Origin: Methylobacillus sp. MM3
Lineage (GTDB): Bacteria; Pseudomonadota; Gammaproteobacteria; Burkholderiales; Methylophilaceae
Direction of reading: 5' to 3'
Assembly (NCBI RefSeq): GCF_001645185.1
Contig: NZ_LXTQ01000050.1
Span: 124,001 to 188,000 of the forward strand
Length of the DNA stretch: 64,000 bases
In this document: positions 4,778 through 29,798 of the stretch, one piece after another
How positions within the stretch are numbered: position 1 is the first letter of the stretch
How the letters are laid out: each line of letters starts with the position of its first letter
Notes under the pieces: generated by a model
What the model saw: the letters and a program-made list of their open reading frames with translations, nothing else
What the model was told of the DNA's origin: nothing
Databases searched by the model: none
Position numbers and translations under genes: made by a program

Positions 4778-5158
4778 TTACAGGTGAACGACTTCGTTTT
4801 TCAGGGAATACAGAATGCAGAGAATCTCGTCTTTTTCACGCTTCCCTACATTGTGCATATCGAGTGCGGCCAGAACATCGTCGCAAACGGCAACAAACTC
4901 GACCGCGTTGATGTTCATTCCCTTGTGTGCCGAAATCATATCCTTGCCGGAATAGGTTTCCGGGCCACCAAAACCCGCGCAGCACATCTCAGTAACCAGG
5001 CGAATGACATTAGCGGGGTCACTATTGGCATAGCGAGTATTGATGAGCGGATTCTTCATGTGATTGTTGAAGATGTCGGTGGCAATTGCCTCGATGCCTG
5101 GCCGCTTCCCCAAGCGTTCATATAATGTGGCGTTTGGGCAGATAGCTTCTGTGTTCAT
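4778..5158 (-). CDS. Truncated haemoglobin, group 1
   Basis: 126 residues with AGGAGAG upstream of the ATG. The sequence TLYERLGKRPGIEAIATDIFNNH and the proximal-histidine segment ISAHKGMNI are those of group-1 (N-type) 2-on-2 globins, which bind O2 or NO at a haem. It lies between the AlkB-like oxygenase and its reductase in one leftward operon. Proposed roles are O2 delivery to the di-iron enzyme or NO protection; this is inference from position. Length is normal for the family. Confidence 0.85.
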   Translation of the reverse strand: MNTEAICPNATLYERLGKRPGIEAIATDIFNNHMKNPLINTRYANSDPANVIRLVTEMCCAGFGGPETYSGKDMISAHKGMNINAVEFVAVCDDVLAALDMHNVGKREKDEILCILYSLKNEVVHL

Positions 5159-5236
5159 GATGGGTCTCTCCTAAAAGTGGTAATGGATCTATGGCCTGAA
5201 GGTGCGAACCACGCCGACTGGGATCGGCGTGAGTAA

Positions 5237-6517: not shown

Positions 6518-6762
6518 GATATGGCTCCTTAAATTCCTCAAATATGTTTTATCAGGGAGACGGCAAATCTTGCGAAGCGGCCCGCGAAGGAGGGAGAGGC
6601 CATTACAAAACTCACCGTCTACGACCGATACTACAAATGAGGAAGCGTAAGGAAAATCCGGAAAACTACGGGGCGGCAGGTGAAATTACGTGTCGGGAAT
6701 ACTTGTATGAAGCTTTTGGCAGTTAAATCAATATCCTGGAATGAAATCTATTTTCAAGTCAT
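6518..6762. other. Promoter-length gap upstream of alkB-like gene
   Basis: 245 bp between the response regulator gene and the AlkB-like gene, long enough to hold an independent promoter. I see no convincing -24/-12 element or strong hairpin. The small open frames here have no ribosome site or recognisable sequence. Confidence 0.4.
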
Positions 6763-7398
6763 TCAATTATCCAGGTTTTCGGGGTCTGACTTGAGCATCA
6801 TTTCGATGAGTTGCCCCAACGATTTGACACCCATCTTTTCGGTAATATTGGCACGATGACCCTCTACAGTACGAACGGACAAGCCCAACTCGGAAGCAAT
6901 GACTTTGTTGGGCTTTCCTTTGCGTAGCAAATCCAGCACCTCACGCTCGCGCGGAGTCAGCGCTGCCAAGCTCTTGCAAGCTTGATTTCTTCGCTCTTCC
7001 TGTTGCCAGAGAGCGGAATATTTATCCAGAGCCGCATGTATTGCATCAAGCAGCGTTTGATCATTGAACGGTTTTTGCAAAAACTCAAATGCGCCAGCTT
7101 TCATCGCTCGGACAGTAATTGGCACATCACCGTGTCCGGTTACGATGATGACCGGCAACTGGATGTTGCCATGGAACAGCTTCTCCTGAAGCTCAATTCC
7201 ACTCATGCCTGGCATGCGGATATCCAATACTATGCAGCCTCGCATATCAGGATGAAAAGACGAGAGAAACTCTTGTGCTGAAGCATAAGTTTTAGCTTTC
7301 AGGCCAACTTGCTCCACTAGCCAGCGGATGGCGTCTCGAACTGCAGAGTTATCGTCAATAATAAAAACCGTTGACAGGCTCTTTGGATCGCTTTTCAT
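6763..7398 (-). CDS. FixJ/NarL-type response regulator
   Basis: 211 residues. An N-terminal receiver domain carries the phospho-acceptor in CIVLDIRMPGMSG and the switch Lys in FLQKPF. A C-terminal LuxR-type helix-turn-helix includes LTPREREVLDLLRKGKPNKV. It overlaps the upstream kinase gene by four bases, so the two form a co-translated pair. The architecture matches FixJ, and also TodT/StyR-type regulators of hydrocarbon oxygenase operons. That fits its place directly before the AlkB-like gene, its probable target. Confidence 0.9.
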   Translation of the reverse strand: MKSDPKSLSTVFIIDDNSAVRDAIRWLVEQVGLKAKTYASAQEFLSSFHPDMRGCIVLDIRMPGMSGIELQEKLFHGNIQLPVIIVTGHGDVPITVRAMKAGAFEFLQKPFNDQTLLDAIHAALDKYSALWQQEERRNQACKSLAALTPREREVLDLLRKGKPNKVIASELGLSVRTVEGHRANITEKMGVKSLGQLIEMMLKSDPENLDN

Positions 7399-9860
7399 GA
7401 CGCATGCTCCCTTGTGCTAGGCAATGTGAAACAGAACATTGCACCCGAGTCGGAATTCGACTCCAACCAAAGCCTTCCTCCGTGCGCATCAATAATGCCC
7501 TGGCTGATACCTAGTCCAATGCCCAGTCCGTTTTGCTTTGTAGTGAAGAATGGCTCAAAGAGGCGATCGACTATTTCCAGGGAACAGCCTCGACCATTGT
7601 CAATGATGCACACGCGAACCCAGTTTCGCTTGTAACGGCCGGCTTTGATAGCGATCCGCCGCTGTCCGGCCTCAATATTGGACAGCGCATCCATGCTATT
7701 GCGTACAAGATTCAGCATCACCTGCTCGATCTGGATCGGATCTGCAATCACCATGGGCAATTGTCGCGCAATTTCCGTCTTCAGTTGCACCTGGCTTTGC
7801 ACTGCTTCAGCGCGTATGAACCCTGCCACCTCATGGATTACATCCTGCAAGTTCACACGTTGTTGGCGGATTTCACCCTTTCTGGCGAAATTTCGAAGAC
7901 GACGAAATATTGCACCGCCAAGCTCGGCTTGACGTACGACCTGCTCCAGGCCGTAACGGATTTCATCCGGGCTGTACTCATTGTTTTGAATGATGCGCAA
8001 ACATGTTTGAGCGTAGGTGGTAATCGCACATAGCGGCTGATTCAACTCGTGCGCCAAGCCAGAGGTCATTTCTCCCAGTACGCTCAAGCGCCCGACATGG
8101 GCCAGTTCCGCTTTATGAAGCCGATCTTGCTCTTCGGCCCTTACCAGATCAGTGATGTCATGTCCCGTGGAGATGAAATGAGTGATCGCGCCCCAATCAT
8201 CCTTGAGTGGCGCAATAGTCTTCTGCTCGTGGAAGATGCTGCCGTCTTTCTTGCGGTTTACCAGAACGCCCCGGTAAACACCGCCATTATCAATAACCTG
8301 CAACAGCGTTTGATAAAACTCTTCGTCGTGCACCCCCGATCGAAGGAAGTACGTTTTCTGCCCGATGACTTCATCGCGGTCATACCCAGTCAATTGCTCG
8401 AATGCTGGATTGACATATTCAATGCGACGCTCGCGATCGGTAATCATGACGGAGTCAGCGGCCTGCTCCAAGGCACCCGATAATTTCCGCATGTGAGCCT
8501 CGGTTCGCTCCCGTTGAAGCTCATTGCCTACCCACTGGGACATCAGCTTAAGAATTTCAAAATCGGCGGAACTGAAAGGCGACTGACGGGGCACTGGGCT
8601 GGCGAAACACAGGGTGCCGTAGAGGCCGCTTGCAACTGAGACGCGCACGCCAATATAGGCTTCCAGCTTATGCTCCCTGTAACTTGGATGCCTGCACCAA
8701 TCGCTATCCCCTGCATGCTCGAAAGCTACCGGATCATTTGAATCGACTGTAGCGCTACAGTATGTTTGATCAATATCCTTCGTGACTCCAACCATAAACG
8801 CCGGATGATCACTGATGGAATCTTGTATACAAAAAAGATGGTCATCTATACGGGAGAGTATGGCGATAGGCATCCGGAATTGTTCACAGCCCAGCTTCAA
8901 GAGGCGATGCAACTTATCCCCAAGGCTGAGCTCATGGTTTGAACTTATTTCATGGAAGGTACGCAGGACCGTTGCATAAAAGCGCAACTCATCTTCAGCC
9001 CTCTGTCGTTGCTGATCTGCTGCCACCCGATCCGTGACATCCTGCAGAATCAGCATTGCACCGCGTTGCCCGGTACGATATGCAAGTGGTGCTGGAGTAA
9101 TTTCCAAAAAACGGATGGACCCGGAAATGCTCTCGATAAGTTCAAAAATCTCCGGCCTTTGCCGATTCATTTCATCCAACGCTTGTTGGAGAAGCGATCT
9201 CATGTGCAATCGCTCGTGATCCGGGAACTGCTCCTCAAGTGGGCGCCCGAGAGCACTTCGTTCGCTGACCCTCAAAAGACTCATGGCTTGACGATTCAGG
9301 GTCAGAATAGAACCGTTCAGATCGACAGTGAGAACGCCGATCGGTGCATGGTCTAATAGCTGATCAAGATAATGCGTAGCCTCCGGCTGCAGTAAAGGCA
9401 AAGTCTCCAACCGGATCTGGGCGCTCGAGATGGTATTTAAATAACGGGTACGCTGCTGACGGCGGCTGACTGAATGTCGAATCGCACTAGAAAGCTCGTC
9501 TATTTCAGAGGTTGCCCAAGGTATTACGTCATTGCCCAGGAATGGGCTGAACATGAGGGTGCGTTTGAGTTGTGCGCAACGTGCGGGAAGACTCAATATT
9601 AGAATCGGGATATATTTATCGTAGGTATGGATGCGCTGAGCAATCCGCACCGGCTCCTCGATTTCCATACCAAGCAGTACCGTATCTGCCGGGCGTCGAC
9701 CTTCCTGAAATCGAGAATACAGCGTATCGAGACTTTCCATCGTTTCAATACGCAGCACCACATCCAACTCTTCATGCAATCTTGCTGTGACATCGGGCGC
9801 CACACCCACGAGATGCAGTATTCCGTTGTCTGGTTGAGATTCCATAGCTGAGTTGGCCAC
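7395..9860 (-). CDS. Multi-domain sensor histidine kinase (receiver-like, PAS, GAF, PAS, HisKA, HATPase)
   Basis: 821 residues without clear membrane segments, so cytoplasmic. Order: a receiver-like N-terminal part (about 15-130), a PAS domain (about 165-280, GVLTVDLNGSILTLNRQ), a GAF domain (about 305-455) with several cysteines, and a second PAS/PAC (about 465-585, SVMITDRERRIEYVNPAFEQLTG). HisKA has the phospho-His in LAHELNQPLCAI, and the C-terminal ATPase has GIGLGISQGI. The layout resembles TodS/StyS and FixL-like kinases that sense hydrophobic chemicals or redox state. It pairs with the overlapping FixJ-type regulator and probably controls the AlkB block. The ligand is unknown. Confidence 0.85.
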   Translation of the reverse strand: MANSAMESQPDNGILHLVGVAPDVTARLHEELDVVLRIETMESLDTLYSRFQEGRRPADTVLLGMEIEEPVRIAQRIHTYDKYIPILILSLPARCAQLKRTLMFSPFLGNDVIPWATSEIDELSSAIRHSVSRRQQRTRYLNTISSAQIRLETLPLLQPEATHYLDQLLDHAPIGVLTVDLNGSILTLNRQAMSLLRVSERSALGRPLEEQFPDHERLHMRSLLQQALDEMNRQRPEIFELIESISGSIRFLEITPAPLAYRTGQRGAMLILQDVTDRVAADQQRQRAEDELRFYATVLRTFHEISSNHELSLGDKLHRLLKLGCEQFRMPIAILSRIDDHLFCIQDSISDHPAFMVGVTKDIDQTYCSATVDSNDPVAFEHAGDSDWCRHPSYREHKLEAYIGVRVSVASGLYGTLCFASPVPRQSPFSSADFEILKLMSQWVGNELQRERTEAHMRKLSGALEQAADSVMITDRERRIEYVNPAFEQLTGYDRDEVIGQKTYFLRSGVHDEEFYQTLLQVIDNGGVYRGVLVNRKKDGSIFHEQKTIAPLKDDWGAITHFISTGHDITDLVRAEEQDRLHKAELAHVGRLSVLGEMTSGLAHELNQPLCAITTYAQTCLRIIQNNEYSPDEIRYGLEQVVRQAELGGAIFRRLRNFARKGEIRQQRVNLQDVIHEVAGFIRAEAVQSQVQLKTEIARQLPMVIADPIQIEQVMLNLVRNSMDALSNIEAGQRRIAIKAGRYKRNWVRVCIIDNGRGCSLEIVDRLFEPFFTTKQNGLGIGLGISQGIIDAHGGRLWLESNSDSGAMFCFTLPSTREHAS

Positions 9861-9872
9861 GTTAGATGACCA

Positions 9873-11036
9873 TTAATCCGAAAGAAGCGGCTGACCCAGC
9901 AAAGCCCGACCAATCCAGACGCGCAGAATATCAGTAGTAGGCGACATCAAGTGGGCAGCCCGTGCATCGCGCAGAAGACGATGGAGCTTTGATCCATTGC
10001 GATAACCTATGCCGCCGCATAAGGTCATGGCCTCGTTAACTATGCTGACAACGCAGTCAGCCACTTCAACTTTGGCTGCCATGACGGCAGTAAGAGCATC
10101 GGGCTCGCCGGCATCAAAACTACTGCCGGCATGATAAGTCAATCGACGCGTTCGTTCCAATACAGCCCAAAGTGAACCCAGGCGATGTTGCAACACGGAG
10201 GTTTGGGCCAGACTTGAACCAGTGTGAGTATGATAACGCCGGATCAAATGCCTCCTCGCTTCATCCAGAGCACTGGTTGCCACTCCTAAAAAGGTTCCGG
10301 CCATGGCCATCAAAAAGTACGGGGTGACAACGTTGAAGATGTACCAGATTTGATCCCCCTCCTTGCCTAGCAAGTTACTTCGCGGCACACGCACACCTCT
10401 CAACTCCATCGTACGTGAAGAGTTGCCACGCATGCCTAATCCATCCCAGTTCGCTCCCCAGTGAATACCCTCGGCTCCAGCCGGTAGCACGACGCATGAA
10501 AACTGGCCTATTGGCGCCTCAGGAGAGGCATCCACGGCAGAAATAACGTAAGAGTCGGCATGCCCTCCATTGGTAACAAAGGTTTTGCTGCCAGTAATAC
10601 TGAATTCTTCTGCAGAAATGGCTTCCAACGCGGTTTGGGGCAAATAAAAGTGCGCACCGGTACCTGCCTCGCTCAGGGAAAGAGTGGTTATATGGCGTCC
10701 TTCAGATATTGGTGTCAAAAAGCGCTCCTGCTGATCTGAAGTAGCATTTACAGCGATTACTGACGATCCAACGCAGTGCATGCCAAAGCATATTGCTGTG
10801 GAGGCGCACTCTTGCCCCAATGTTTCGCAAACCTTGGCCAGCGTCAGTAATCCATGCCCCTGACCACCATAGGCAGTTGGTATCACTAACCCACCAAAGC
10901 CCTCCTGCTGCAGTGCCCGCATTCCCGGCTCAGGCCATAAGGCACCTTTATCCGTTTGTTCTACATTCGGTGCCACAACGTCCTTCGCAATTTCTTGAGC
11001 CTTCAGTAACAACCAGGACATTTCTTGGCGGTGCAT
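9873..11036 (-). CDS. Acyl-CoA dehydrogenase-family flavoprotein
   Basis: 387 residues. GAGGTG lies before the ATG. The fold is visible from the N-terminal helical part (GFGGLVIPTAYGGQG), the flavin-contact region (TTLSLSEAGTGAHF; ITGSKTFVTNGGHAD) and the C-terminal helices (CGGIGYRNGSKLHRLLRDARAA). The family includes fatty-acyl-CoA dehydrogenases and also flavin monooxygenases of sulfur-source metabolism such as DszC and SfnB. Near the C-terminus, where many acyl-CoA dehydrogenases keep a catalytic Glu around a YEG-type segment, this protein reads GYRNGSKLHRLLRDARA, so classical dehydrogenase activity is uncertain. It lies 12 bp before the kinase gene, in the same operon direction. Confidence 0.75.
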   Translation of the reverse strand: MHRQEMSWLLLKAQEIAKDVVAPNVEQTDKGALWPEPGMRALQQEGFGGLVIPTAYGGQGHGLLTLAKVCETLGQECASTAICFGMHCVGSSVIAVNATSDQQERFLTPISEGRHITTLSLSEAGTGAHFYLPQTALEAISAEEFSITGSKTFVTNGGHADSYVISAVDASPEAPIGQFSCVVLPAGAEGIHWGANWDGLGMRGNSSRTMELRGVRVPRSNLLGKEGDQIWYIFNVVTPYFLMAMAGTFLGVATSALDEARRHLIRRYHTHTGSSLAQTSVLQHRLGSLWAVLERTRRLTYHAGSSFDAGEPDALTAVMAAKVEVADCVVSIVNEAMTLCGGIGYRNGSKLHRLLRDARAAHLMSPTTDILRVWIGRALLGQPLLSD

Positions 11037-16392: not shown

Positions 16393-16408
16393 TGGCATCA
16401 CACTTGCT
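16393..16408 (+). promoter_or_regulatory. Sigma-54 (-24/-12) promoter of sqr
   Basis: TGGCATCACACTTGCT: GG and GC are separated by exactly 10 bp, as sigma-54 RNA polymerase requires. The predicted start is near 16420, about 140 bp before the sqr ATG. Matching elements precede mtoX, soxC and osmC. The -24 box also forms a GATGCC-N6-GGCATC palindrome with the six bases upstream. Confidence 0.8.
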
Positions 16409-18264: not shown

Positions 18265-19467
18265 TCAGGGCACCGGAGCCTCGAAATAGGCCTCGCGCGC
18301 TTCTTTCTCAAGCCGCTTTACATTGGAACCGGTCAGCGCGTTCATGAACGCGACCAAATCGGCTTTTTCTTCTTGAGTGAGTCCAAGAGGCACCATGCGC
18401 TGATCTTTGTAGGGGTTATCCTCGCCCCCCACATTATAGAAATCCACAACGCTTTCCAATGTACGCAGAGAGCCGTCGTGCATATAGGGAGCAGTCAGCT
18501 CTATATTTCTTAAACTTGGTGTTTTGTATAACCAGCTATCGTCCGGATTACTGGTGACTTCAAAGCGCCCGACATCATTTTTTGGAGTCTCGCTTGCTTT
18601 GTCGAAGTGATCATTGGCCACTTCCACGGTAATACCCGGAGCCAGTGAAACAGGGAAGGTGTGCTTTGAGGCTTCTTTTTTAACCAGGTTGCTCAATACC
18701 TTGTTATTGCGGCTCCAGCCAGCACCGGTATTGTGGAATGACTGATCGGTAAAAAGTGCCGAATCCTTATTTATCGTATGGCAGCTTATACAGTTCGCCT
18801 TCCCGGAAAACAGCCGGAACCCATTGATTTCCCTTTCATTGAGCGCCTTCTCGTTTTTGCCGAAATACCACTGATCAAATCTGGAATTCCCGGACACCAT
18901 TGTTCGTTCATACGATGCAATAGCCAGATTCACTCGTTCCAAATTGGCCTTCTGGCCATCGAATGCTTGTTCGAACAAACCCTGATAGTCAGGAAATGAA
19001 TTAATTTTTTCAATGACAAATCCGATAGAAGGATTTCCCATTTCATTTTCTGCGAGTAATGGACCAATAATCTGGTTTTCCAGCGAGAACTCGCGGCCAT
19101 CATGAAACAGGTGCTTGTAATAGCCCACGTTAAAGATCGTGGGAGCGTTCCGCTTATGCGTCCGCCCTTCCAGGCCAACTGCAGTGGCGATTTCATTCAC
19201 GACGAACCCTTGCTCCGGTACATGACACATTGCACAGGAAATTGTGTTGTTCTGCGAAAGTCTACGATCCATGAATAACTTCCTGCCGAGGGCAACCTTC
19301 TCGGCAGTCAGAGGGTTATCCTCCGGTATCGTCATTGCGGGCAGACCAAGAGCATCTTCTTTTGAGTAAGGCTCGTAAGTATTCCCGGATTTATTGAGCA
19401 ACGCGACAGCCATATAAAGAACTGCGACGATCATGAAAAGAATGAAGAGATAAAAGATGACTCGCAT
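18265..19467 (-). CDS. mauG: MauG/cytochrome c peroxidase-family di-haem protein
   Basis: 400 residues. An N-terminal hydrophobic anchor spans residues 3-26. Two c-haem motifs, CAMCH (about residue 80) and CISCH (about residue 230), lie in the order of bacterial di-haem peroxidases, and the C-terminal half has the usual TPSLRNIELTAPYMHDG. It closes the mtoX-SCO-mauG operon. In characterised methanethiol oxidase operons a MauG-like gene is linked to mtoX. It may mature MtoX by oxidising a protein residue, or remove the H2O2 that MtoX makes. Which of the two is not shown by the sequence. Confidence 0.85.
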   Translation of the reverse strand: MRVIFYLFILFMIVAVLYMAVALLNKSGNTYEPYSKEDALGLPAMTIPEDNPLTAEKVALGRKLFMDRRLSQNNTISCAMCHVPEQGFVVNEIATAVGLEGRTHKRNAPTIFNVGYYKHLFHDGREFSLENQIIGPLLAENEMGNPSIGFVIEKINSFPDYQGLFEQAFDGQKANLERVNLAIASYERTMVSGNSRFDQWYFGKNEKALNEREINGFRLFSGKANCISCHTINKDSALFTDQSFHNTGAGWSRNNKVLSNLVKKEASKHTFPVSLAPGITVEVANDHFDKASETPKNDVGRFEVTSNPDDSWLYKTPSLRNIELTAPYMHDGSLRTLESVVDFYNVGGEDNPYKDQRMVPLGLTQEEKADLVAFMNALTGSNVKRLEKEAREAYFEAPVP

Positions 19468-19477
19468 TGCAACCCCG

Positions 19478-20230
19478 CTAATTCAATATATCTTTTTGTT
19501 CAAGAAGCAATGTCTTGATGTCGTTCAACAATATCTCGGCATCGAGATAGGATGTTGAGTAGATCTCGCGTACAGAGCCCTTTTCATCGATCAAAAAAAC
19601 CTTGAGCACATGTTGATAAGTCAATGTCTGATCGCCTGTTTTAGGGTCCAGTTCAATGTCCACATTCTGGCCAAAAGCATCAATCAAAGGCAGCAGATGG
19701 TTTACCGAAGGAGTGGTAACAAAATTCCATTCCACCCTGTTTTCCGGCTGACTTGTGCCTTTCATCTGTTTCTCGAGCCCAGCCATCATCACTGGAGTAT
19801 CCCGCTCGGGGTCGAAGCTGATATTTACCAGCCTGACGGCCTGTGACATTTTGTGTTTTTCCAATTTATCTTTCACTGAGTGAAATACGCCGATGGCATA
19901 AGGACATCCATTCACATCAGAGCATCTTTGGTAGAAAAACGTCAGCAAAGTCAATTTGCCTTGCGTGTAGTTGCTTAATGGCTGTACTTCCCCTTTGCTA
20001 TCCAGGACTTGATAAGCCGGCACCTGGAATATTCTCTCGAGCTTGTAGGTACCTGGCTTGGGCAAGCTTGATCCAGGTTTGGCATTTGTTGTTTCATGAA
20101 AGAAAGACTCTGTCTGGCCGTTAGGAGAAAAAATTTCCCCACACCCTGCTAGGAACCAGACAGAGGAGAATGTCGCTAATCCGAGCAGTGATACTGCAAG
20201 GATAAAAACAAATCGTGACGGCAACCACAT
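19478..20230 (-). CDS. SCO1/SenC-family copper chaperone with unusual CxxxxxC spacing
   Basis: 250 residues. A hydrophobic N-terminus ends in a possible lipobox (FLAGC, Cys30). The thioredoxin-like core has the copper-site segment FFYQRCSDVNGCPYAIGVF. Here the two cysteines (103 and 109) are separated by five residues instead of the usual three of CxxxCP. The copper-binding His is retained in LTYQHVLKVFLID. It lies between mtoX and mauG and would deliver copper to the copper enzyme MtoX in the periplasm. The altered cysteine spacing may reflect that specialised client. Confidence 0.85.
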   Translation of the reverse strand: MWLPSRFVFILAVSLLGLATFSSVWFLAGCGEIFSPNGQTESFFHETTNAKPGSSLPKPGTYKLERIFQVPAYQVLDSKGEVQPLSNYTQGKLTLLTFFYQRCSDVNGCPYAIGVFHSVKDKLEKHKMSQAVRLVNISFDPERDTPVMMAGLEKQMKGTSQPENRVEWNFVTTPSVNHLLPLIDAFGQNVDIELDPKTGDQTLTYQHVLKVFLIDEKGSVREIYSTSYLDAEILLNDIKTLLLEQKDILN

Positions 20231-20298: not shown

Positions 20299-21642
20299 CT
20301 AATTGCTTGCAAACTTGGTTTTTGACTCCACAGTCGCTTGCAGCGGTTGTAGCGTTTTCAGGTCGCGGACCTGGAATTTCATATGGTGAGCCCGACCCAG
20401 CTTTTCCTTATAGAAGTCGATCTCGAAGCCAGGCTTCAATTCCTTGCCGTCCCAGTGATACATCTTCAGGAACTGCTCGTCCGCCTTGCCTTTCATATCC
20501 CAGTTACCCAGCAGGGACGTCGTGTAATAAACACGCGTTCCGTCAAAGCTGGGGGAGACCATGTTCACCTGGGAACCGATCTTCTTGGTGTAGGTTTCTT
20601 TCGGATTCAACGGGTCGGTCATGTCCCAGAATCGGGTAGTCCCATCCATGAAAGTATTCACCCACATGCCCTTGCCGTCAGGAATCAGCGCAATATCCAC
20701 AGGCAACGGAATCTTGGCCGGATCGCCGATAGTTCCAACCTTGTGTTGCTGCCACTCGCCCTTGTCATCCTGCTTGTAAACAAAGATGTTGGAAGTGAGC
20801 GCGGTGGTCGTCACGGCCCAGTTATCGCCAGGCTTGAAGGACCAGCGGGCTTCAAGTGCCGCGCCGGGCGTGTTGAATATCTTGAGGGGCTTCATGGACT
20901 TGTAGTCCCACATCACCGTGGTGTTACCAAACTGCTTCATGGCCTCCGGATCTTTCACCAACTTGCCGAGATCGGCCATGTAGTTGTTCCACCCGGTAAA
21001 TGCTGTCGTCAGCATCGCATTCTTGTTCGGGTTGATTGCCACATCGTAGCCGAAACCATCACCACCATTGGTCGTCGGCATCGGATAGGTCGCAACATGT
21101 TCGCCAGCGTTGGTATATACCGCCAGACCCGTCTGACCACCGTGATCCTTTGCGTTGGACAGGGCTGCAACTACCATACGGCCCGGAGTCGCATAGAACG
21201 TATGCGGACCTACGAGACCGGTCTTGGGTACAAAGTTGTTAATGGTTTTGACAAGCTTGGGCTTGGCAGGATTTGTTGCCACATCAAAGATAAAAATCTT
21301 GTTGCTATCCAGCGCACCCGCCCACATGAACTTGCGGTCATCCGTGAAGCCCATATGGTGAGCTTCACCACGGCCGCCTACGGAGGTTTTGGCGATGACT
21401 TTACCGTAAGCCTTGGACTTGGGATTAACATCCACGGTTACAAGCTTGTCGGATTCGTCACCAATACCCTTGACGCCCAGCGTCCAAACATAGACAAAGT
21501 CTTCCTGCCCTTTGACCAAAGGCGTGAAGGGTGAGCAACTCGATTCGTCTGCATTGGCAAGCGGCAGCGTCATCATGCCCATCCCCAGAAGGGCGACTTG
21601 AGAGATCTTACGAATTGCCACTACGCTTTCTTTTAGTTTCAC
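20299..21642 (-). CDS. mtoX: Methanethiol oxidase (SBP56 / selenium-binding protein family)
   Basis: 447 residues with a Sec signal peptide (residues 1-31, ending LANADES), so periplasmic. The start is GTG with AAGGAG 10 nt upstream. The SBP56 seven-bladed propeller is recognised by SVGGRGEAHHMGFTDDRKF, LVGPHTFYATPGRMVVAALSN and the late LGRAHHMKFQV. These histidine pairs are candidate copper ligands. Bacterial members oxidise methanethiol with O2 to formaldehyde, H2S and H2O2. The companions SCO and mauG, and the setting beside sqr and sox, support that activity over the cytosolic vertebrate-type function. A sigma-54 promoter and FisR-type sites lie upstream. Confidence 0.9.
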   Translation of the reverse strand: MKLKESVVAIRKISQVALLGMGMMTLPLANADESSCSPFTPLVKGQEDFVYVWTLGVKGIGDESDKLVTVDVNPKSKAYGKVIAKTSVGGRGEAHHMGFTDDRKFMWAGALDSNKIFIFDVATNPAKPKLVKTINNFVPKTGLVGPHTFYATPGRMVVAALSNAKDHGGQTGLAVYTNAGEHVATYPMPTTNGGDGFGYDVAINPNKNAMLTTAFTGWNNYMADLGKLVKDPEAMKQFGNTTVMWDYKSMKPLKIFNTPGAALEARWSFKPGDNWAVTTTALTSNIFVYKQDDKGEWQQHKVGTIGDPAKIPLPVDIALIPDGKGMWVNTFMDGTTRFWDMTDPLNPKETYTKKIGSQVNMVSPSFDGTRVYYTTSLLGNWDMKGKADEQFLKMYHWDGKELKPGFEIDFYKEKLGRAHHMKFQVRDLKTLQPLQATVESKTKFASN

Positions 21643-21754: not shown

Positions 21755-21770
21755 AGCAACGCGCATGCCA
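21755..21770 (-). promoter_or_regulatory. Sigma-54 promoter of mtoX operon
   Basis: Reads TGGCATGCGCGTTGCT on the minus strand, with GG and GC exactly 10 bp apart. The predicted start is about 100 bp before the mtoX GTG. It is nearly identical to the elements before sqr, soxC and osmC. Confidence 0.82.
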
Positions 21771-21901: not shown

Positions 21902-23350
21902 CTATGGCCTTTTCCGAATATACAAATCTGTAATCGTCTCTTCCTTGATTTCGGCAGCAAAACATACCGTTTCAGACAGGGTAGGGTGTGCATGAATAGT
22001 GATACCCAGGCTTCTCGCATCTGCACCCATTTCGATGGCAAGTGCCGTCTCTGCCAGAATTTCCCCTGCGTTTGTTCCCACAATACCCGCCCCAATCAAT
22101 CGATCGGTCTCGCTATCAAAAATTAATTTTGTCAGCCCTTCAGTACGGGCAATACTGATTGCCCTGCCACTTGCCGCCCACGGAAAAGTGGCTTTTTCTA
22201 TAGCGATCCCCTTGGCTCTGGCCTCAGTTTCAGTCACGCCGACCCAAGCCACTTCGGGGTCGGTGTAGGCTACTGCAGGAATGACTGAAGCCTGAAACTC
22301 GACCTCTTTGCCGGCAATGACTTCCGCAGCCACTTTGCCTTCATGCGTCGCTTTGTGCGCCAGCATGGGCTGCCCGACAATGTCACCGATTGCAAAAATG
22401 TGGGGAACATTGGTACGTAGCTGTTTATCGACGGGAATGAATCCCCGCTCATCCACGAACACCCCCGCATTTTCCGCGCCGATGAATTTACCATTGGGCC
22501 TTCTGCCTACGGCGATCAGCACCTTGTCATATAACTGTTTATCGATCACATTGTCTTTTTCGAACGTCACATGTATCCCGTCATACCGCGGTTCGATGGT
22601 GCTGACTTTTGTATCTAGGTGGATCTTCTCAAATCTTTTTTCCATCCGCTTTTGAAGAGGGCGCACCAGATCGCGGTCACACCCCTGCATCAGGCCATCG
22701 CTCAACTCAACCACACTTACCCTGGATCCAAATGCATCGTAGACCGTCCCCAACTCCAGGCCGATAATTCCCCCACCGACGACGAGCATGCGTTTCGGTA
22801 TATCTTCCAGTAGCAATGCACCCGTGGAATCCATGATCCTCGAGTCGTCCGGCAGTCCAGGGAAACGGATAGGCTGCGATCCAGCCGCAATAATGGCGCT
22901 TTCGAAAGCAACCATGGTGACGTCGCCATTTTGCGCGCACACTTCCAGCTCATGGGGTGAAACGAACTTGCCGACGCCGGATAATGTTGTGATCTGGCGC
23001 TGCTTTGCCATATGACTCAACCCATTGGTTAACTGCCCGATAACTCCATGATCCTTCCATTCGCGAAGCTCCTGAAGATTTATTTCGGGCTTAACGTAAC
23101 GGATGCCATGGGAGAACATCTGTTCAGCTTCAGTGATCACCTTTGCCGCATGCAACAGAGCCTTCGATGGGATGCATCCCATATTCAGGCAAACGCCTCC
23201 CAAGGCCGGCCCACGTTCGACAAGAAGTACTTTCTTGCCCAAATCGGCTGCCCGGAAAGCTGCGGTATATCCCCCTGGTCCAGCGCCAAGTACCAGTACT
23301 TCAGTATCCAGATAAGTGACTGCAGGAGTACTGCTATCGTAGGAATCCAT
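21902..23350 (-). CDS. lpd: Dihydrolipoyl dehydrogenase-like flavoprotein
   Basis: 482 residues. FAD motif VLVLGAGPGGYTAAFRAADLG, redox-active disulfide GGVCLNMGCIPSKALLH, NAD motif MLVVGGGIIGLELGTVYD, and the C-terminal catalytic segment AIEMGADARSLGITIHAHPTLSET with the active-site His. It reoxidises dihydrolipoyl groups with NAD. No E1/E2 dehydrogenase genes accompany it. Instead the same leftward operon encodes a lipoyl carrier (25060) and the two lipoylation enzymes, so it probably serves that carrier. Confidence 0.9.
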   Translation of the reverse strand: MDSYDSSTPAVTYLDTEVLVLGAGPGGYTAAFRAADLGKKVLLVERGPALGGVCLNMGCIPSKALLHAAKVITEAEQMFSHGIRYVKPEINLQELREWKDHGVIGQLTNGLSHMAKQRQITTLSGVGKFVSPHELEVCAQNGDVTMVAFESAIIAAGSQPIRFPGLPDDSRIMDSTGALLLEDIPKRMLVVGGGIIGLELGTVYDAFGSRVSVVELSDGLMQGCDRDLVRPLQKRMEKRFEKIHLDTKVSTIEPRYDGIHVTFEKDNVIDKQLYDKVLIAVGRRPNGKFIGAENAGVFVDERGFIPVDKQLRTNVPHIFAIGDIVGQPMLAHKATHEGKVAAEVIAGKEVEFQASVIPAVAYTDPEVAWVGVTETEARAKGIAIEKATFPWAASGRAISIARTEGLTKLIFDSETDRLIGAGIVGTNAGEILAETALAIEMGADARSLGITIHAHPTLSETVCFAAEIKEETITDLYIRKRP

Positions 23351-23454
23351 TTGATTTATCCTTTGATTCTCAAAACTTTTATTAAAAATCTGATTCAGAA
23401 AACGATTTGCTGCTCAGTCGCAACGGTCAACCATCAAAACGGTTAAATGAAAAA

Positions 23455-24390
23455 TCACAGCACTTTCCGGGCTTGCTGATCCGCATGATAGGAAGAGCGC
23501 ACCATCGGGCCGCACGTTGCCTGACTGAAACCGAGCTCATATGCAAGCCCTTCAAATAACCTGAATTGTTCCGGCTCTACGTATCTCGCTACAGGCAGAT
23601 GATGTTCTGTAGGCTGTAAATACTGGCCTAAAGTCAGCATTTCCACTCCGGCCGTACGCATGTCACGCATGACTTGAATGATTTCCTCATTGGTCTCGCC
23701 CACCCCCAACATCAACCCCGATTTCGTAGGAATGCCGGGATTCCTCGATTTGAATTCTTTCAACAAGCTGAGCGAATGAAGGTAATCGGCCCCGGGACGT
23801 ACTTGTTTATAGAGTCGCGGCACGGTTTCCAGGTTGTGGTTGAATACATCCGGCCGTTCGCACGCCAGGGCTGCAAGCGCTTTTTCAAGGCGGCCACGAA
23901 AATCGGGAACCAGGATTTCGATCAATGTGCCGGGGGAAGTCATACGTATTGCCTGGATGCATTTTGCAAAATGCTCCGCGCCGCCATCACGCATATCGTC
24001 ACGATCAACGCTGGTAATGACGACATAGTTAAGCTGCATGAGGCCAATCGTTCGCGCGAGATTCTCGGGCTCGTCATTGTCAGGAGGCAACGGCCGGCCA
24101 TGCCCGACATCGCAGAACGGGCAACGACGCGTGCATATATCTCCCAGAATCATGAAGGTTGCCGTCCCGCTGCTGAAACACTCGCCAATATTTGGGCAGG
24201 AAGCCTCCTCGCATACGGTATGTAAATTATTTTCTCGAAGAATATTTTTTATTTCCCGAAACCTTGATCCGATCGGGGGCTTCATGCGTATCCACTCAGG
24301 CTTATTCAAGGCAATGGCAGGCACGACTTTGATGGGGATACGGGCGGTTTTTGCAGCCCCTTTTTCTTTAATTCCTATAACGGAAGTCAT
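23455..24390 (-). CDS. lipA: Lipoyl synthase
   Basis: 311 residues. The auxiliary-cluster motif is [12 protein letters not shown] and the radical-SAM motif is [13 protein letters not shown]; the C-terminal RSSYHAD that completes the auxiliary cluster is present. It inserts two sulfurs into a protein-bound octanoyl group to make lipoyl. It overlaps lipB by four bases and lies in the operon with a lipoyl carrier and lpd. The 104 bp to lpd contain no terminator. Confidence 0.95.
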
Positions 24391-25034
24391 AGAAAACCTT
24401 TCAATTGAGCGAAGCTAATCTGTCGCTCACATAAATGGGCTAACTGAGTCGTAACTTCGTCAGTGGCTGCTGATACACCCAGATTGCGAAGCTGGGTCAC
24501 CTCAAGGCCTTTAAAGCCGCAAGGATCGATGGAGGAAAACGGAGACAGATCCATGTCGACGTTCAGACTGAACCCGTGATAGCTGCATCCCCTTTTGACA
24601 CGGAGACCTAATGAAGCAATTTTTCGCTTACCGACGTACACCCCGGGGGCATCCTCGATCAACTCAGCTTCCACTTGATAGATTCTCAGGGCTTCAACCA
24701 CAATATTTTCGATGCATTGAACCAGCGGCTTCACCGCCAGATTCAGCCGGTTCAGATCAAGCAGAAGATAAACAACTACCTGACCTGGCCCGTGATAAGT
24801 GATCTTTCCGCCCCGATCCGTCTCAACCAGAGGAATATCGGAGCGTAGCGGCAAACTGACTCCCCGCCTGTTCAACCCCAGGGTATAAACAGGCGGGTGC
24901 TCAGTGAGCCATATTTCGTCAGATGTATCTGTATCGCGTGAGGAGGTAAATTCCTGCATCGCTTGCCAGGTACTGAGATAGTCAGTTACCCCAAGATTCC
25001 GCAGGACAGGGCGTGATATAGAATTTTTAAGCAT
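24387..25034 (-). CDS. lipB: Octanoyltransferase
   Basis: 215 residues. The conserved segments [21 protein letters not shown], the [19 protein letters not shown] lysine region and the catalytic Cys in [16 protein letters not shown] identify LipB. It transfers octanoate from acyl carrier protein to a lipoyl-domain lysine. The gene ends inside lipA and starts 25 bp after the carrier gene. Dedicated lipB and lipA copies beside a GcvH-like gene suggest the operon makes its own lipoylated carrier. Confidence 0.93.
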
Positions 25035-25059
25035 TTTGAAAATGCATGGCTATTGCTTG

Positions 25060-25443
25060 TCACTCGCCGATGTTCTTTCGATACTCTTCAGCGCTCATCA
25101 GCATTTCAATTTCACCCAGATTCGAAAGCTTGATACGGACAATCCATCCTTTTCCGTAAGGGTCGTCATTGAGCATAAAAGGCTCGGATCGCAAGTTTTC
25201 ATTCACTTCCAGCACGACCCCGGTAGCGGGAGAAATAAGGTCGGAAACGGTTTTTCTCGATTCCACGGTCCCGCACGAAACCCCGCAACTGACCATGCTG
25301 CCTTTGGGCGGCCCGCCAAGCTCGACGATATCTCCCAGGGTGTCTTGCGCAAAAAACGTGATTCCAATCAGGGCTTCATCATTAGGCTGCAGAATCAGCC
25401 ATGTATGCTCCTTGTGGTAGTGGCACTCATTTGGATAGCTCAT
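25060..25443 (-). CDS. GcvH-like lipoyl carrier protein (LbpA candidate)
   Basis: 127 residues from the ATG at 25443 (GAGGTAATGAT upstream); longer in-frame extensions have no ribosome site. It has the GcvH fold (HYHKEHTWLIL, ITFFAQDTLGDIVELGGPP) and the lipoyl attachment lysine, Lys64, in GTVESRKTVSDLISPATG. No gcvT or gcvP is nearby, so glycine cleavage is unlikely. In sulfur oxidisers, GcvH-like LbpA proteins carry sulfur for the sHdr pathway. Cys53 and Cys57 just before the lipoyl site (MVSCGVSCGTVES) are not usual in GcvH. No hdr genes lie in this window. Confidence 0.75.
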   Translation of the reverse strand: MSYPNECHYHKEHTWLILQPNDEALIGITFFAQDTLGDIVELGGPPKGSMVSCGVSCGTVESRKTVSDLISPATGVVLEVNENLRSEPFMLNDDPYGKGWIVRIKLSNLGEIEMLMSAEEYRKNIGE

Positions 25444-25553
25444 ATCATTACCTCGATAGTATTGGTTTGTTTTTACTGTGTTCTTCGGATTGGGTGGGTC
25501 TGCATGATTTATTTCCAGCAACATGACAGCCCACCCCAACCATGGCAGATGCC

Positions 25554-25940
25554 TCAGCCTATGACGACATCCAGGCCCGCCACTTTCCAGGCCTCAAAAC
25601 CACCTCCCATGGAGATGACGGATTGATACCCGAGCGTCCTCAGCGTCTGTGCAGCCAAAGCGCTGCGTGCACCTGATTTACAGTAAACAACCATTTGCGC
25701 CGACTTATCGAACAAGGCAGGGATGCCTGCCGGATAAGTCGGATCCACTCTGAACTCGAGCACGCCGCGCGGGACATTGATTGCACCTGCGAGATGACCT
25801 TGTGCAAATTCTTCCGGCTCGCGCACGTCAACCACGATGGGCGATTCTGCTTTGATAAGCTGAGCCACCGTGCTGACATCCTTTTCAACGATTTCAACTT
25901 TCGCGATCCCGACCAGTTGCTGTGTTGTTAGAATTTCCAT
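25554..25940 (-). CDS. Single-domain rhodanese-like sulfurtransferase
   Basis: 128 residues from the ATG at 25940. The active loop is CKSGARSALAAQTLRTLGYQSV with the catalytic Cys and the usual WKVAGL end. Single-domain rhodaneses carry sulfane sulfur as a Cys persulfide. About 30 residues precede the fold (MEILTTQQLVGIAKVEIVEK). It sits between a fadL-like and the lipoyl carrier gene in a FisR-type operon, so handing sulfur to or from the lipoyl carrier is a reasonable hypothesis. Confidence 0.85.
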   Translation of the reverse strand: MEILTTQQLVGIAKVEIVEKDVSTVAQLIKAESPIVVDVREPEEFAQGHLAGAINVPRGVLEFRVDPTYPAGIPALFDKSAQMVVYCKSGARSALAAQTLRTLGYQSVISMGGGFEAWKVAGLDVVIG

Positions 25941-25957
25941 CGTTTTGTCCTCGCCTC

Positions 25958-27178
25958 TTATTTGAAACTCCAGGTGAGTCCGGCACCGACCTGCCATGTG
26001 CTCGCCTCAACCTCGGTATTTCCAATGTCATCCTTATTCTTCAGCGCGAATGCCACGTGTGAATCCAAGGAGATTTTGTCTGTCAGCTGATAACCGAAGC
26101 CTGCGGAAATCTGATCTTCCCAGATCGCTTCGGTATTAGTTGCCTGGAAGTATTGGACCAACGATGGTGTAAGCGTCAACGTTCCACCACCTGGCAACCC
26201 CATGGAGGGAACGCCGCCGATACTGGATCCGACGCTACGCTTGATGGGGTCTCTTGCGTAGCTGTAGCCGATGCGCCATTTGGCTGCGCCGGTAGTTAGT
26301 TGCGCGCCAACGGCAAACACTGTCTGATCGCGATAAAAATCCTTGTAAAGATCTGCACTCGACCAGTCCTTATAAATAATATCCGCAGATATTAAAAGGT
26401 TGCCGCCCATTAATGAGTTGTTAGCCACCCCCACGGCAAATTCCTGAGGTTGCTCAACATCAACAGACCAGAAGTTACCTTGGCCGGGGCCGATCGGGCC
26501 GCCATTGTCCACGAAATCATCGTATTCAATTTTCAACGGACTCCGGTAATAAGCGCCCACACTGGTAGCGCCCATATCGTATTTTGCCCCGAACGTGCCT
26601 CTAATCCCGAAGCCGTGCGTAGAAGCAGTATTAGCTGATAAACCCATCTGCAGGAACCCATTCGCGATCGTTGCCATCGCACCCAAAGACAAGTTGTCAG
26701 TGACCTTGTACCCTACCCCTGCATTTGCCATAAATACAAGCAACTCTGAATCAGGATCCAGGCTTCCTGGGGTATCTCGGAAATCTGAACCAATACCCGA
26801 TTGCGCCGTTAATCCGAGGCCAACCACTAACTGGGGATTAAATGCATGAGTTATAGCTATAGTAGGCACCAGATACTCATCTGCTTTTGACTCTGCAGAC
26901 CAAGGTACACCGGTATCCCCTCCGTTATGGCTTGCCTCAACATCCACGTTGTAATAAGTTGCACCAAAAGAAAAACTGGTCCCTTGGTTGTATTCCGTTA
27001 GCGTTGCCGGATTTCCAAATACTGCGGCTGCGCCTTCTATTGTCCGTGCTACGCTCGCCCCGCCCATACCTCCCGTGGCCGGCAACATCGAATTGTTCAG
27101 GTCGGTACCATAGTTCGCCGCATGTGCGACAGGCGCTGCCAGCAACGTGGCAGCCAAGGTGTATACGATTCTTTTCAT
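25958..27178 (-). CDS. FadL/OmpP1-family outer-membrane transporter
   Basis: 406 residues with a signal peptide (MKRIVYTLAATLLAAPVAHA). The mature N-terminus NYGTDLNNSMLPATGGMGGASVAR is the plug region of FadL-type barrels, and the C-terminus ends in an aromatic (LTWSFK). The family passes hydrophobic small molecules (fatty acids, toluene, alkanes) across the outer membrane. In this operon it may import a hydrophobic organosulfur compound or sulfur species. It could also serve the AlkB-type monooxygenase encoded elsewhere in the window. Confidence 0.85.
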   Translation of the reverse strand: MKRIVYTLAATLLAAPVAHAANYGTDLNNSMLPATGGMGGASVARTIEGAAAVFGNPATLTEYNQGTSFSFGATYYNVDVEASHNGGDTGVPWSAESKADEYLVPTIAITHAFNPQLVVGLGLTAQSGIGSDFRDTPGSLDPDSELLVFMANAGVGYKVTDNLSLGAMATIANGFLQMGLSANTASTHGFGIRGTFGAKYDMGATSVGAYYRSPLKIEYDDFVDNGGPIGPGQGNFWSVDVEQPQEFAVGVANNSLMGGNLLISADIIYKDWSSADLYKDFYRDQTVFAVGAQLTTGAAKWRIGYSYARDPIKRSVGSSIGGVPSMGLPGGGTLTLTPSLVQYFQATNTEAIWEDQISAGFGYQLTDKISLDSHVAFALKNKDDIGNTEVEASTWQVGAGLTWSFK

Positions 27179-27213
27179 TTAAGTCCCCTTCTGAGTATTT
27201 TCGTTGGCAACGA

Positions 27214-27768
27214 TCAGGCTTCTGCAACTTCCATGGTCGAATATGTGTTCAGCTCTTTTCCGTTAACCAAAGCACGTCCGGAAACTTTTTGTGCACGAAC
27301 GAGAATGTCCATGACAGGACAATGGCTCTCCACCGTTTCAATCAGCTTCAGCAGTGAAGCATCGTCAGCGGAGCTGGTGATTCTTGTCTCATAGGAAATA
27401 TGCTGATAACCGGGCGGCACGGTCGGTTCAAGACCAAGCAGGCCTCGCACATCCAGATATCCTTTAACGTCAACCTTGCATTCATCCAGCTTGATACCCA
27501 TGAAAGCGGCATAAGCAGAGAACATGATTTCCTGACAGGTGCCAAGCGCCACCAGCACAAGTTCAACCGGATTCATGCCTGCATCGCCACCGCCTAGCTC
27601 CGGCGGTTCATCGATGATGACGGGTGGAAAATCGCGGACATGTGCGACACATTGCACATCGTTTTGCAAACTGGTCGAAGCTCTGAATACAACCTTTGCA
27701 GCACCCGGATTGCTACCAATTGCGCCTATCATTTCTGAGAGCGCTTTCTTTACAGACTCTTGTGACAT
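27214..27768 (-). CDS. OsmC/Ohr-family protein
   Basis: 184 residues with GAGGAGAAATC before the ATG. OsmC fold features are the conserved Glu/Asp-rich loop DEPPELGGGDAGMNPVELVLVALGTCQEI, with the first Cys in GTC, and the second Cys in VESHCPVMDIL. This peroxidatic/resolving pair reduces organic hydroperoxides using lipoyl-linked reductants. That is striking here: Ohr/OsmC proteins are known to be recycled by lipoylated proteins and lipoamide dehydrogenase, and the same operon encodes a lipoyl carrier, LipA, LipB and Lpd. It is the first gene after the sigma-54 promoter. Confidence 0.85.
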   Translation of the reverse strand: MSQESVKKALSEMIGAIGSNPGAAKVVFRASTSLQNDVQCVAHVRDFPPVIIDEPPELGGGDAGMNPVELVLVALGTCQEIMFSAYAAFMGIKLDECKVDVKGYLDVRGLLGLEPTVPPGYQHISYETRITSSADDASLLKLIETVESHCPVMDILVRAQKVSGRALVNGKELNTYSTMEVAEA

Positions 27769-27917: not shown

Positions 27918-27933
27918 AGCAAGGAGCAGGCCA
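27918..27933 (-). promoter_or_regulatory. Sigma-54 promoter of the osmC-to-lpd operon
   Basis: Reads TGGCCTGCTCCTTGCT on the minus strand with GG-N10-GC spacing. The predicted start is about 140 bp before the osmC ATG. Confidence 0.75.
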
Positions 27934-28293: not shown

Positions 28294-29625
28294 TTATTGC
28301 CCGCATTTTATTTCCTTGAGTTTTCGATAAAACGTTCTCGATGTAAGCCCGAGCTTGGTTGCCAGAGTCTTTTTGTTTTCACTGCTTTCGCTGATCACCC
28401 ACTGCAGGTATCGAGACTCCAGGTCATGCAATGGGATCACCTCGCCATTGAACAATGACTGCTTCGATGTCACCTGCGTTTGCGAGGCGGTTAATTGCGC
28501 ATCGTCCATCAGATGATATCGTTGAATTTTTTCGGTATCCGCTAACAGAATGGCTCGCTCCAGCATGTTGCGAAGTTCCCTGATATTGCCGGGGAAAGAG
28601 TATTCCGTGAGAAATTCCCTGGCTTCATCGGTGAGCAAAAAATTCCTGTGCGGCGAGAGCCGATGCAAAAGTGACTCGGCCAGAACGCAAATATCTTCTT
28701 TACGCTCGCGCAGCGCTGGCATGTGGATCGGGAATGCATTGATACGAAAATACAAGTCTTGCCGGAAGGTGCCCTCTTCTACCATGCGCTTCAAATCACG
28801 GTGCGTGGCGCAAATGAGCCGGAAGTTTGTCCGCAGGACATCCAGGCCACCCACTTTTCTATAGGTGCTGGTCTCGATTAAACGCAATAGTTTGACTTGC
28901 TGGCTGAGCGGAATCTCGCCGACTTCATCCAGAAAAAGCGTCCCGCCATGCGCCATTTCAACCAAACCCTTTTTCTCGCTGTAGGCCCCGGTAAAAGACC
29001 CTTTTTCATGGCCGAATAACTCGCTTTCAAAGAGAGTTTCGGTGAGGCCCGAGCAATCGACGATTACAAATCCGGAGTTGCTGCGTTTGCTTTTTTTATG
29101 CAGAACGTGCGCAATCACCTCTTTCCCTGTTCCGGATTCGCCCAGTAGCAGTGCCGGTGTATCGCTTGGGGCCACGCGCTCGATTAGCCCGAGCATATGA
29201 ACAAACGCCGGACTTTTACCAACCGCACTTTCCGGGCTGGGCAAGGCAGAAATATGGTTCTGCTTTCTCAGGGTTTCAATATAGAAAGCCGGCTCACCGA
29301 AATCATCAAGGATGGGGGTAAGCTCCACATCCACATGCTCTCGCCCCCGTGGAGTGTGGTGCAGGTGAAATACGCGGTGAGTCGATTTGGTTTCCCTGGC
29401 TTCTTTTAATGGGCAGGCCTCACCTTGCTGATCACATGGCTTCAGGTAGTGATGGGATACCTCATAGCAATGCTTTCCTTGCATCGGCTTGCCGTCACCA
29501 AAAATTTTCTGATATGCGAGGTTGGAATAAATGATTCTGTAATCCGTGCCCAACACCAAGCGCGGCTCAGGCAAGGAATCCAGAAAATCCATCAAATCTT
29601 TGCTTACCATGATCGATTCAAGCAT
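28294..29625 (-). CDS. fisR: FisR-like sigma-54-dependent activator, probable sulfane-sulfur sensor
   Basis: 443 residues from the ATG at 29625, chosen because GGAAGGA precedes it. A PAS-like N-terminal domain has three cysteines at 53, 64 and 71 (HCYEVSHHYLKPCDQQGEAC). These positions match those described for FisR of Cupriavidus, which senses sulfane sulfur and activates sqr-pdo. The AAA+ domain has Walker A GESGTGKEV, Walker B GGTLFLDEV and the sigma-54 loop as GSFTGA (a GAFTGA variant). A C-terminal Fis-type helix-turn-helix follows (KKTLATKLGLTSRTFYRKLKE). It lies between two operons with sigma-54 promoters. It likely controls sqr, mtoX, the osmC operon and sox. Confidence 0.88.
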   Translation of the reverse strand: MLESIMVSKDLMDFLDSLPEPRLVLGTDYRIIYSNLAYQKIFGDGKPMQGKHCYEVSHHYLKPCDQQGEACPLKEARETKSTHRVFHLHHTPRGREHVDVELTPILDDFGEPAFYIETLRKQNHISALPSPESAVGKSPAFVHMLGLIERVAPSDTPALLLGESGTGKEVIAHVLHKKSKRSNSGFVIVDCSGLTETLFESELFGHEKGSFTGAYSEKKGLVEMAHGGTLFLDEVGEIPLSQQVKLLRLIETSTYRKVGGLDVLRTNFRLICATHRDLKRMVEEGTFRQDLYFRINAFPIHMPALRERKEDICVLAESLLHRLSPHRNFLLTDEAREFLTEYSFPGNIRELRNMLERAILLADTEKIQRYHLMDDAQLTASQTQVTSKQSLFNGEVIPLHDLESRYLQWVISESSENKKTLATKLGLTSRTFYRKLKEIKCGQ

Positions 29626-29798
29626 GATATTTCCTTCCATAACTCAGTAGTTCATGCCTATTTAATTCCTAAGATCACACCCACCAATGCAAAAACAACT
29701 TTCATTATCTGCTTTGATATTCAATTGACTATCCGTAAAACTACTGGGAAGCACGATTTCTTCACAATTGATTTAAGGGAGTAATAAGTAAGAAGTAT

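Follow-up and report, generated by a model that had tools for sequence, protein, structure and literature searches.

An osmC and lipoyl-carrier operon beside mtoX

We examined a 64,000-nucleotide stretch of the Methylobacillus sp. MM3 genome (contig NZ_LXTQ01000050.1, positions 124,001 to 188,000; hereafter the window), in which a gene for an OsmC-family protein and a gene for a GcvH-derived lipoyl carrier share an operon. Seven closely spaced genes on the minus strand, osmC-fadL-rhodanese-carrier-lipB-lipA-lpd (27768-21902), are followed downstream by the methanethiol oxidase gene mtoX. A first-pass annotation had proposed this operon, naming the carrier gene gcvH-like; its interpretation is borne out in part, and the operon is real: all seven genes were recovered in place and on the proposed strand, and all seven proteins passed Pfam cut-offs in a profile search. 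NCBIfam cut-offs were passed by the LipB, LipA, dihydrolipoyl dehydrogenase and GcvH models, and likewise by MtoX next door. The genome to which the window belongs (G000) comprises 2.96 Mb in 59 contigs, with a listed completeness of 100%; other genomes are given by number where they must be told apart.

The first gene, osmC (27214..27768), encodes an OsmC-family protein of 184 residues (PF02566, 2.6e-18) with conserved Cys78 and Cys150. It is separated by 35 bp from fadL (25958..27178), which encodes an outer-membrane FadL/TodX-type porin (PF03349, 9e-15); genes 73-74% identical to it lie close to the corresponding blocks of G086 and G092, there on the strand opposite to osmC. After 17 bp comes a single-domain rhodanese (25554..25940; PF00581, 3.7e-21; ATG at 25940 read from the sequence), with 52-54% identical genes in the blocks of G086, G092, G486 and G1254. 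A gap of 110 bp precedes the carrier gene (25060..25443), whose 127-residue product matches GCV_H (PF01597, 7.3e-35) and has its lipoyl lysine in ESRKTVSDL, aligned with the lysine of ESVK in known H proteins; the start is the ATG at 25443, the listed TTG start at 25539 being too long. The octanoyltransferase gene lipB (24387..25034; PF21948, LplA-B_cat; NF010922 276 bits, cut-off 235) begins 25 bp further on and overlaps the lipoyl synthase gene lipA (23455..24390; Radical_SAM and LIAS_N; TIGR00510 435 bits, cut-off 310) by 4 bp. The operon ends, after a gap of 104 bp, with the dihydrolipoyl dehydrogenase gene lpd (21902..23350; Pyr_redox_2 and Pyr_redox_dim; TIGR01350 488 bits, cut-off 409), whose product has both the redox CxxxxC and the HxHPTxxE motifs. 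The functional neighbour mtoX (20299..21642, minus strand; NF052453 717.8 bits, cut-off 650) lies 259 bp beyond it.

The carrier branch and its gene neighbourhood

Two full-length GcvH-type genes are present in G000, namely the operon carrier and one directly behind gcvT on contig C30; their products are 34% identical, and the operon itself has no gcvT. Three other GCV_H hits sit in frames of 456 to 619 residues and seem to be lipoyl domains belonging to E2 or E3 proteins. A gcvTP pair elsewhere without a gcvH of its own, named in the first-pass annotation as the counter-case, did not turn up, since gcvT has a gcvH beside it (the check covered gcvT, with gcvP unchecked). In a careful tree of 81 rows, in which the gcvT-linked rows and 14 chosen others were retained, seven carriers (the window's, those of G086 and G092, three of G486 and one of G490) came out as a single group (support 100/98), distinct from the 74 other GcvH-type rows including the gcvT-linked ones. 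The same seven grouped with support 0.97 in a faster tree of 175 distinct rows. The second GcvH beside gcvT, the low identity and the separate tree group bear out the carrier's distinctness from the glycine-cleavage protein. Judged by these trees, the carrier belongs to a small, well-supported side branch of GcvH, the short alignment leaving its deeper placement loose.

Ten branch carriers were inspected: the seven above, two of G1254 and one of G1250, the last three being included by similarity (61, 89 and 95% identity to a G486 carrier) and not by tree. Within the genus of G486, branch-type scores (at least 170 bits) were obtained in three of 12 genomes, G486, G1254 and G1250. A scan of genome contigs gave at least 80 GcvH-type loci, none of those listed exceeding 50% identity; at E 1e-8, these loci gave no match to osmC, rhodanese, lipA or mtoX. 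When plasmids were searched for the carrier, OsmC and a desaturase of the window, none of the matches listed reached 60%, and a viral scan gave five loci at 37-41%. At six Nitrospira-type or other Nitrospirota loci (L111, L124, L134, L136, L161 and L164, one labelled Nitrosospira), a GcvH-type gene lies beside or near lpd. The stretches gave no gcvT match, and no OsmC was found; the GcvH-type genes are loosely placed near the carrier branch in trees.

An OsmC-family gene is near all ten inspected carriers, next to them or separated from them by rhodanese, Lpd or porin genes; seven of the gaps measure 15-2369 bp and the other three about 30 to 1490 bp. Outside the branch, OsmC was found within 1.5 kb at none of 174 GcvH-type loci and, where long flanks were available, within 3 kb at none of 63. 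These controls used two profiles of our own, built from five and two sequences, which remote OsmC genes could escape; the count omits L004, L034, L035, L040, L099 and L100, which are duplicates or long stretches, and the 174 loci include repeats of one gene and loci cut by contig ends. The tie of carrier to OsmC drawn at first pass is thus upheld by the comparison of branch and control loci, and since the core recurs in other genomes, the osmC-carrier block is more than chance.

What stays constant is the pairing of OsmC with the carrier, mostly joined by Lpd, which accompanies six of the ten carriers (the window's, those of G086 and G092, two in G486 and one in G1254), the G486 Lpd being only about 30% identical to that of the window. 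The gene beside the G490 carrier reads as thioredoxin reductase-like. A short form of OsmC accompanies the carriers of G490 and G1250 and the b-type carriers of G486 and G1254; that of G486 passes PF02566, and the other short forms resemble it. A rhodanese is found in all five blocks near mtoX, those of the window, G086, G092, G486 and G1254. The module is rare in a sample of 398 genomes of the phylum: apart from the window's genome, an OsmC search at E 1e-35 picked up just two distant genomes, and their short loci hold no other operon gene. Neither the carrier nor lpd gave a match within 6 kb of a plasmid-borne OsmC of Rhodococcus opacus (49% identity). We also observed a second type of carrier block, consisting of an ABC transporter with an NMT1-like binding protein, a short OsmC and a carrier (L099 6230-8221, L103 5176-7231, L301 6808-8805); the stretches of L103 and L301 gave no match to mtoX. 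Around the G086 block (L034 6025-6825 and 11601-13046) there is a SoxY-SoxZ fusion gene and, behind lpd, an uncharacterised gene and a DSBA-family gene; in G092 the genes after lpd have similar lengths.

The lipB and lipA of the operon are both second genomic copies, and the pairing of canonical LipA and LipB with this carrier, remarked on at first pass, is sustained by their equivalog scores. The second lipA of G000 adjoins the second lipB, and the other lipB is 61% identical to it (L233). Two lipA copies each were counted in G000, G086 and G092 and one each in G011, G035 and G486; G011 and G035 belong to the same genera as the operon-bearing family genomes and lack the operon, so that among the six genomes checked only those three have two. 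The earlier claim of a complete lipoylation set stands for the window operon and needs a caveat from four other genomes, whose blocks lack lipB (G086 and G092) or both lipA and lipB (G486 and G1254). Because of these absences in four genomes, the lipoylation genes are an optional addition.

Methanethiol oxidation and possible regulation of the block

When the carrier was searched against 150 genomes of the family, 34 matched at E 1e-25, and three stood out (2e-86, 4e-46 and 2e-44, the next being 6e-31). Among the same 150 genomes mtoX is present in exactly these three (G000, G086 and G092), in agreement with the tie to mtoX made at first pass. Across the wider samples, five genomes have the block, rhodanese included, no more than about 10 kb from mtoX, and mtoX itself was found in 18 of 399 genomes of the order, 17 of them over the cut-off. 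Behind mtoX the window has SCO1 and MauG genes (18265..20230, minus strand; PF02630, PF03150); in 16 mtoX stretches (L211-L226), SCO1 is present in all 16 and MauG in 10. Upstream of the operon are a sigma-54 activator gene, an HbpS-like gene and sox genes. Other parts of the window carry genes for SulP, an AhpC-family protein and proteins resembling SQR and persulfide dioxygenase. The mto clusters of Methylophaga thiooxydans resemble the window in bringing together mtoX, SCO1/MauG, persulfide dioxygenase, SQR and SulP; the lipoyl block is present in the window, whereas none is named in the passages of that report (PMC6548844). At L213 (3109-3639, G315), an OsmC of the same subgroup (54% identity) lies near mtoX; the 15 kb fetched there gave no match to the carrier.

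Published degraders of dimethyl sulfide (DMS) are found within the Methylophilaceae (PMC4611497). Growth of Methylophaga on DMS is reported to raise the transcript levels of mtoX and of genes for a dihydrolipoamide dehydrogenase and a FadL-like porin (PMC6548844), and this transcriptome is independent support for the setting of the operon.

A gene for a sigma-54 activator with a PAS domain, the likely regulator, lies just upstream (28294..29640, minus strand; PF00158 1.6e-63, PF08448), and a 72% identical gene occupies the same neighbourhood in G086 and G092. Sigma-54-like sites were scored out of 31 against the sigma-54 consensus. The site before osmC (27918..27933, minus strand; TGGCCTGCTCCTTGCT) scores 28, equalled or bettered in 14 of 400 random sequences of equal dinucleotide make-up, and that before mtoX (21755..21770, minus strand; TGGCATGCGCGTTGCT) scores 30, with none of 400 as good. 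Since the latter lies in the lpd-mtoX gap, mtoX probably has its own start. Each of the three family genomes has sites of 28-30 upstream of osmC and mtoX, the separately placed fadL genes of G086 and G092 have upstream sites of 27 and 28, and the SQR genes of all three have an upstream site of 29 (16393-16408 for the SQR-like gene of the window); inside the window operon, none of the gene starts has a site scoring as high as 27. Single sites mean little, as a permissive scan gave 13 sites of at least 28 on the two strands of the window, and 14 of 43 upstream regions, five with approximate gene starts, scored at least 27. Taken as promoter-like sequences, the sites support co-regulation within the family only. 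The PAS domain of the activator has a cysteine pattern, CYEVSHH...PCDQQGEACPL, that is nearly identical in G086, and may possibly be a sulfur or redox sensor.

The proposed electron chain and its rivals

The reading that best fits these observations, and which we consider probable, if only just, is a dedicated chain from NADH through Lpd and the lipoyl carrier to OsmC, serving the breakdown of methanethiol and DMS. NADH would reduce Lpd, and Lpd would reduce the lipoyl arm of the carrier; the dihydrolipoyl arm would then reduce the disulfide (or persulfide) formed on OsmC when an oxidant is removed. The extra LipB and LipA would keep the carrier lipoylated, FadL would let in hydrophobic substrates, and the rhodanese would feed sulfane sulfur to the lipoyl arm or move it onward. 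The sigma-54 activator would turn the block on along with methanethiol oxidase, from which the service to methanethiol and DMS breakdown would follow. The observed basis of this reading is gene content, motifs, conserved neighbourhood, paralogy, phylogenetic separation and promoter-like sites; from these we infer the electron flow, the OsmC substrate, the FadL and rhodanese roles and regulation by the activator.

The closest precedent is eukaryotic. In the hydrogenosomes of Trichomonas vaginalis, OsmC is reported to remove peroxides with electrons from lipoate via the H and L proteins (PMC7946386), and the window likewise encodes together an OsmC-family protein, a GcvH-type lipoyl carrier and Lpd. 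The operon is probably, by analogy, a bacterial counterpart of that chain with a distinct carrier lineage, added to a gene island for methanethiol degradation. It differs from the Trichomonas system, whose complex has been called incomplete, in being bacterial and held in one operon with its own lipoylation genes, rhodanese and porin and with mtoX beside it, and in having a carrier that belongs to a separate GcvH side branch.

The window OsmC is 61-69% identical to its homologues in the blocks of G086, G092 and G486 and 46% identical to a fourth, in the second G486 block. Across the five aligned rows Cys78, Cys150, Arg29 and Glu54 are invariant, position 69 is Glu or Asp, and Val or Ala stands at the spacing where Ohr has Glu. 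With the lipoyl-dependent Ohr/OsmC peroxidases the protein shares the OsmC domain, two cysteines and a proposed lipoyl reductant; it differs from them in the residues before the first cysteine and in having a dedicated carrier. The reductant of Ohr is reported to be dihydrolipoic acid or lipoylated proteins (PMC9495516, PMC5962072). A structure model of OsmC alone had a predicted local distance difference test (pLDDT) value of 33.8, too poor to place active-site residues.

The oxidant met by OsmC may be a peroxide, a persulfide or a disulfide. Peroxide is suggested by the Trichomonas precedent. The first-pass annotation had argued for it from H2O2 made by MtoX, an argument now weakened, as three methanethiol oxidases (MTOs) of Rhodobacteraceae reportedly form sulfane sulfur without any H2O2 (PMC10936201). 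Sulfur is suggested by that product, by the rhodanese, by the reported induction of ohr itself by polysulfide in Pseudomonas aeruginosa (PMC9495516), by an osmC of Pelagibacter reported to be raised under sulfur limitation (PMC5069961) and by the residue spacing of the OsmC subgroup, unlike that of Ohr. A more specific version, which we put forward tentatively, is that the carrier branch, a lineage not described before, with its obligate OsmC partners and Lpd is an NADH-dependent sulfur-oxidant reductase of methanethiol degraders, which would reduce dimethyl disulfide and/or protein or low-molecular persulfides to thiols. NADH-linked reduction of dimethyl disulfide has reportedly been seen in Thiobacillus, though a literature search did not bring it up; if true, the sulfur-oxidant reductase would give this activity a gene basis.

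Several observations weigh against the chain from NADH to OsmC or its link to methanethiol. Before its first cysteine the window OsmC differs from Ohr, in which Glu51 lies ten residues before Cys61 (PMC5962072): at the equivalent spacing it has Val68, with Glu69 adjacent. Its nearest solved relative lacks the second cysteine, and the nearest protein is an OsmC-like protein of unknown function; the peroxidase label of the first-pass annotation is therefore not secure, and the subgroup is not a proven peroxidase. In the neighbour count, only three of the five branch loci pass the 1.5 kb limit that the controls were held to, genes intervening in the other two. G1250 has no Lpd or thioredoxin reductase-like match in the 20 kb fetched. 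The osmC genes of G486 have no sigma-54-like site, and the stretches fetched for the G490, G1250 and second G486 blocks contain no mtoX. In the order sample, 16 of the 18 mtoX stretches, at least four of which end at a contig end (L212, L213, L216 and L220), have no carrier, lipA or lpd, the exceptions being the window's genome and G486; the block is for this reason an accessory of methanethiol oxidation and not a necessity. Finally, the dehydrogenase induced in Methylophaga on DMS may be an ordinary E3, an E2 protein having also risen (PMC6548844).

The alternative that survives best is that the lipoyl arm carries sulfur; the first-pass annotation had suggested that it may accept sulfane or methylated sulfur. 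In this case the rhodanese would pass sulfane sulfur to the dihydrolipoyl arm and OsmC would act on persulfides; the arm would either free sulfide and be recharged by Lpd, in effect an NADH-dependent reduction of sulfane sulfur or thiosulfate, or hand its sulfur to the persulfide dioxygenase. The presence of a rhodanese in all five blocks near mtoX, the reports that rhodanese can use dihydrolipoate as its sulfane acceptor (PMC6067878) and that sulfane sulfur is the MTO product (PMC10936201), and the persulfide dioxygenase-like, SQR-like and sox genes of the window all agree with it. Yet the stretches of the second G486 block, G490 and G1250 (the last searched at E 1e-10) have no rhodanese match and OsmC each time, and in the window's genome we recognised no enzyme, sHdr for example, that would oxidise sulfur bound to the lipoyl arm. 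We regard this alternative as possible but doubtful.

It is unlikely that the carrier is a spare glycine-cleavage H protein that, together with a spare E3 and lipoylation genes, is simply carried along in a sulfur island. The carrier does pass the cut-off of the GcvH equivalog TIGR00527 (126.6 against 115.85 bits), but the genome has its own gcvT-gcvH elsewhere, the carrier falls on a separate branch, and the OsmC neighbour is kept across genomes of several families.

That the carrier is the LbpA-type carrier of the sHdr sulfur-oxidation pathway, a link drawn in the first-pass annotation, is very improbable: the likeness extends to a GcvH-derived carrier in sulfur oxidisers, here in a sox-bearing genome, with a rhodanese nearby, whereas the operon has canonical lipB and lipA and OsmC as constant neighbour, and LbpA is reported not to be served by the canonical lipoylation systems (E. 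coli, B. subtilis) and to be accompanied by sLpl and LipS1/S2 (PMC10332631, PMC6067878). Of the four CCG-domain proteins of G000, two read from their sequences as GlcF-type subunits, one as a membrane electron-transfer protein and one as a FAD-linked oxidase, and none reads as sHdrB-like (no shdr-specific model was run). A search for LipS2 at E 1e-60 gave nothing in G000 or among 106 genomes of the class (LipS1 and sLpl were not searched). The sHdr negative holds for G000, and the trees that set the carrier apart had no LbpA row; G086 and G092 have one CCG frame of 1298 residues each, taken by length alone as the FAD-oxidase type, and G486 has 11 unread CCG hits, one pair of them in a 324-residue frame.

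To our knowledge, lipoate has very few known roles. If the chain from NADH to OsmC is correct, a GcvH-derived lineage wired to OsmC and methanethiol oxidation would add a role for lipoate beside those of GcvH and LbpA, and would explain how some bacterial OsmC-type proteins are recharged. It would also supply testable genes for the handling of peroxide, disulfide or persulfide while DMS and methanethiol are degraded, which is a step in the global sulfur cycle. In open-licence literature on OsmC with lipoate or GcvH, or on OsmC or mtoX with methanethiol or DMS, we found no description of the operon among the matches listed.

A further gene pair of the window may concern an earlier step. At 3655-6541 lies a gene for an FA_desaturase-family protein (27% identity to XylM) with HELSH and NYMEHYGL, which we take to be AlkB-type motifs, and a ferredoxin-NAD(P)H reductase-like gene is nearby; both recur in G486 (89 and 76% identity), about 12 kb from its carrier block. 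By family and motif the pair is a candidate DMS monooxygenase. A desaturase and a flavin reductase are reported to rise in Methylophaga on DMS, where the first DMS enzyme is unknown (PMC6548844). Between L263 (8413-15785) and the window (3655-11036) the desaturase is 89% and an acyl-CoA dehydrogenase-like protein 87% identical across two families, compared with 69% for mtoX; this difference in identity suggests a separate, recent horizontal transfer of the desaturase/acyl-CoA dehydrogenase block.

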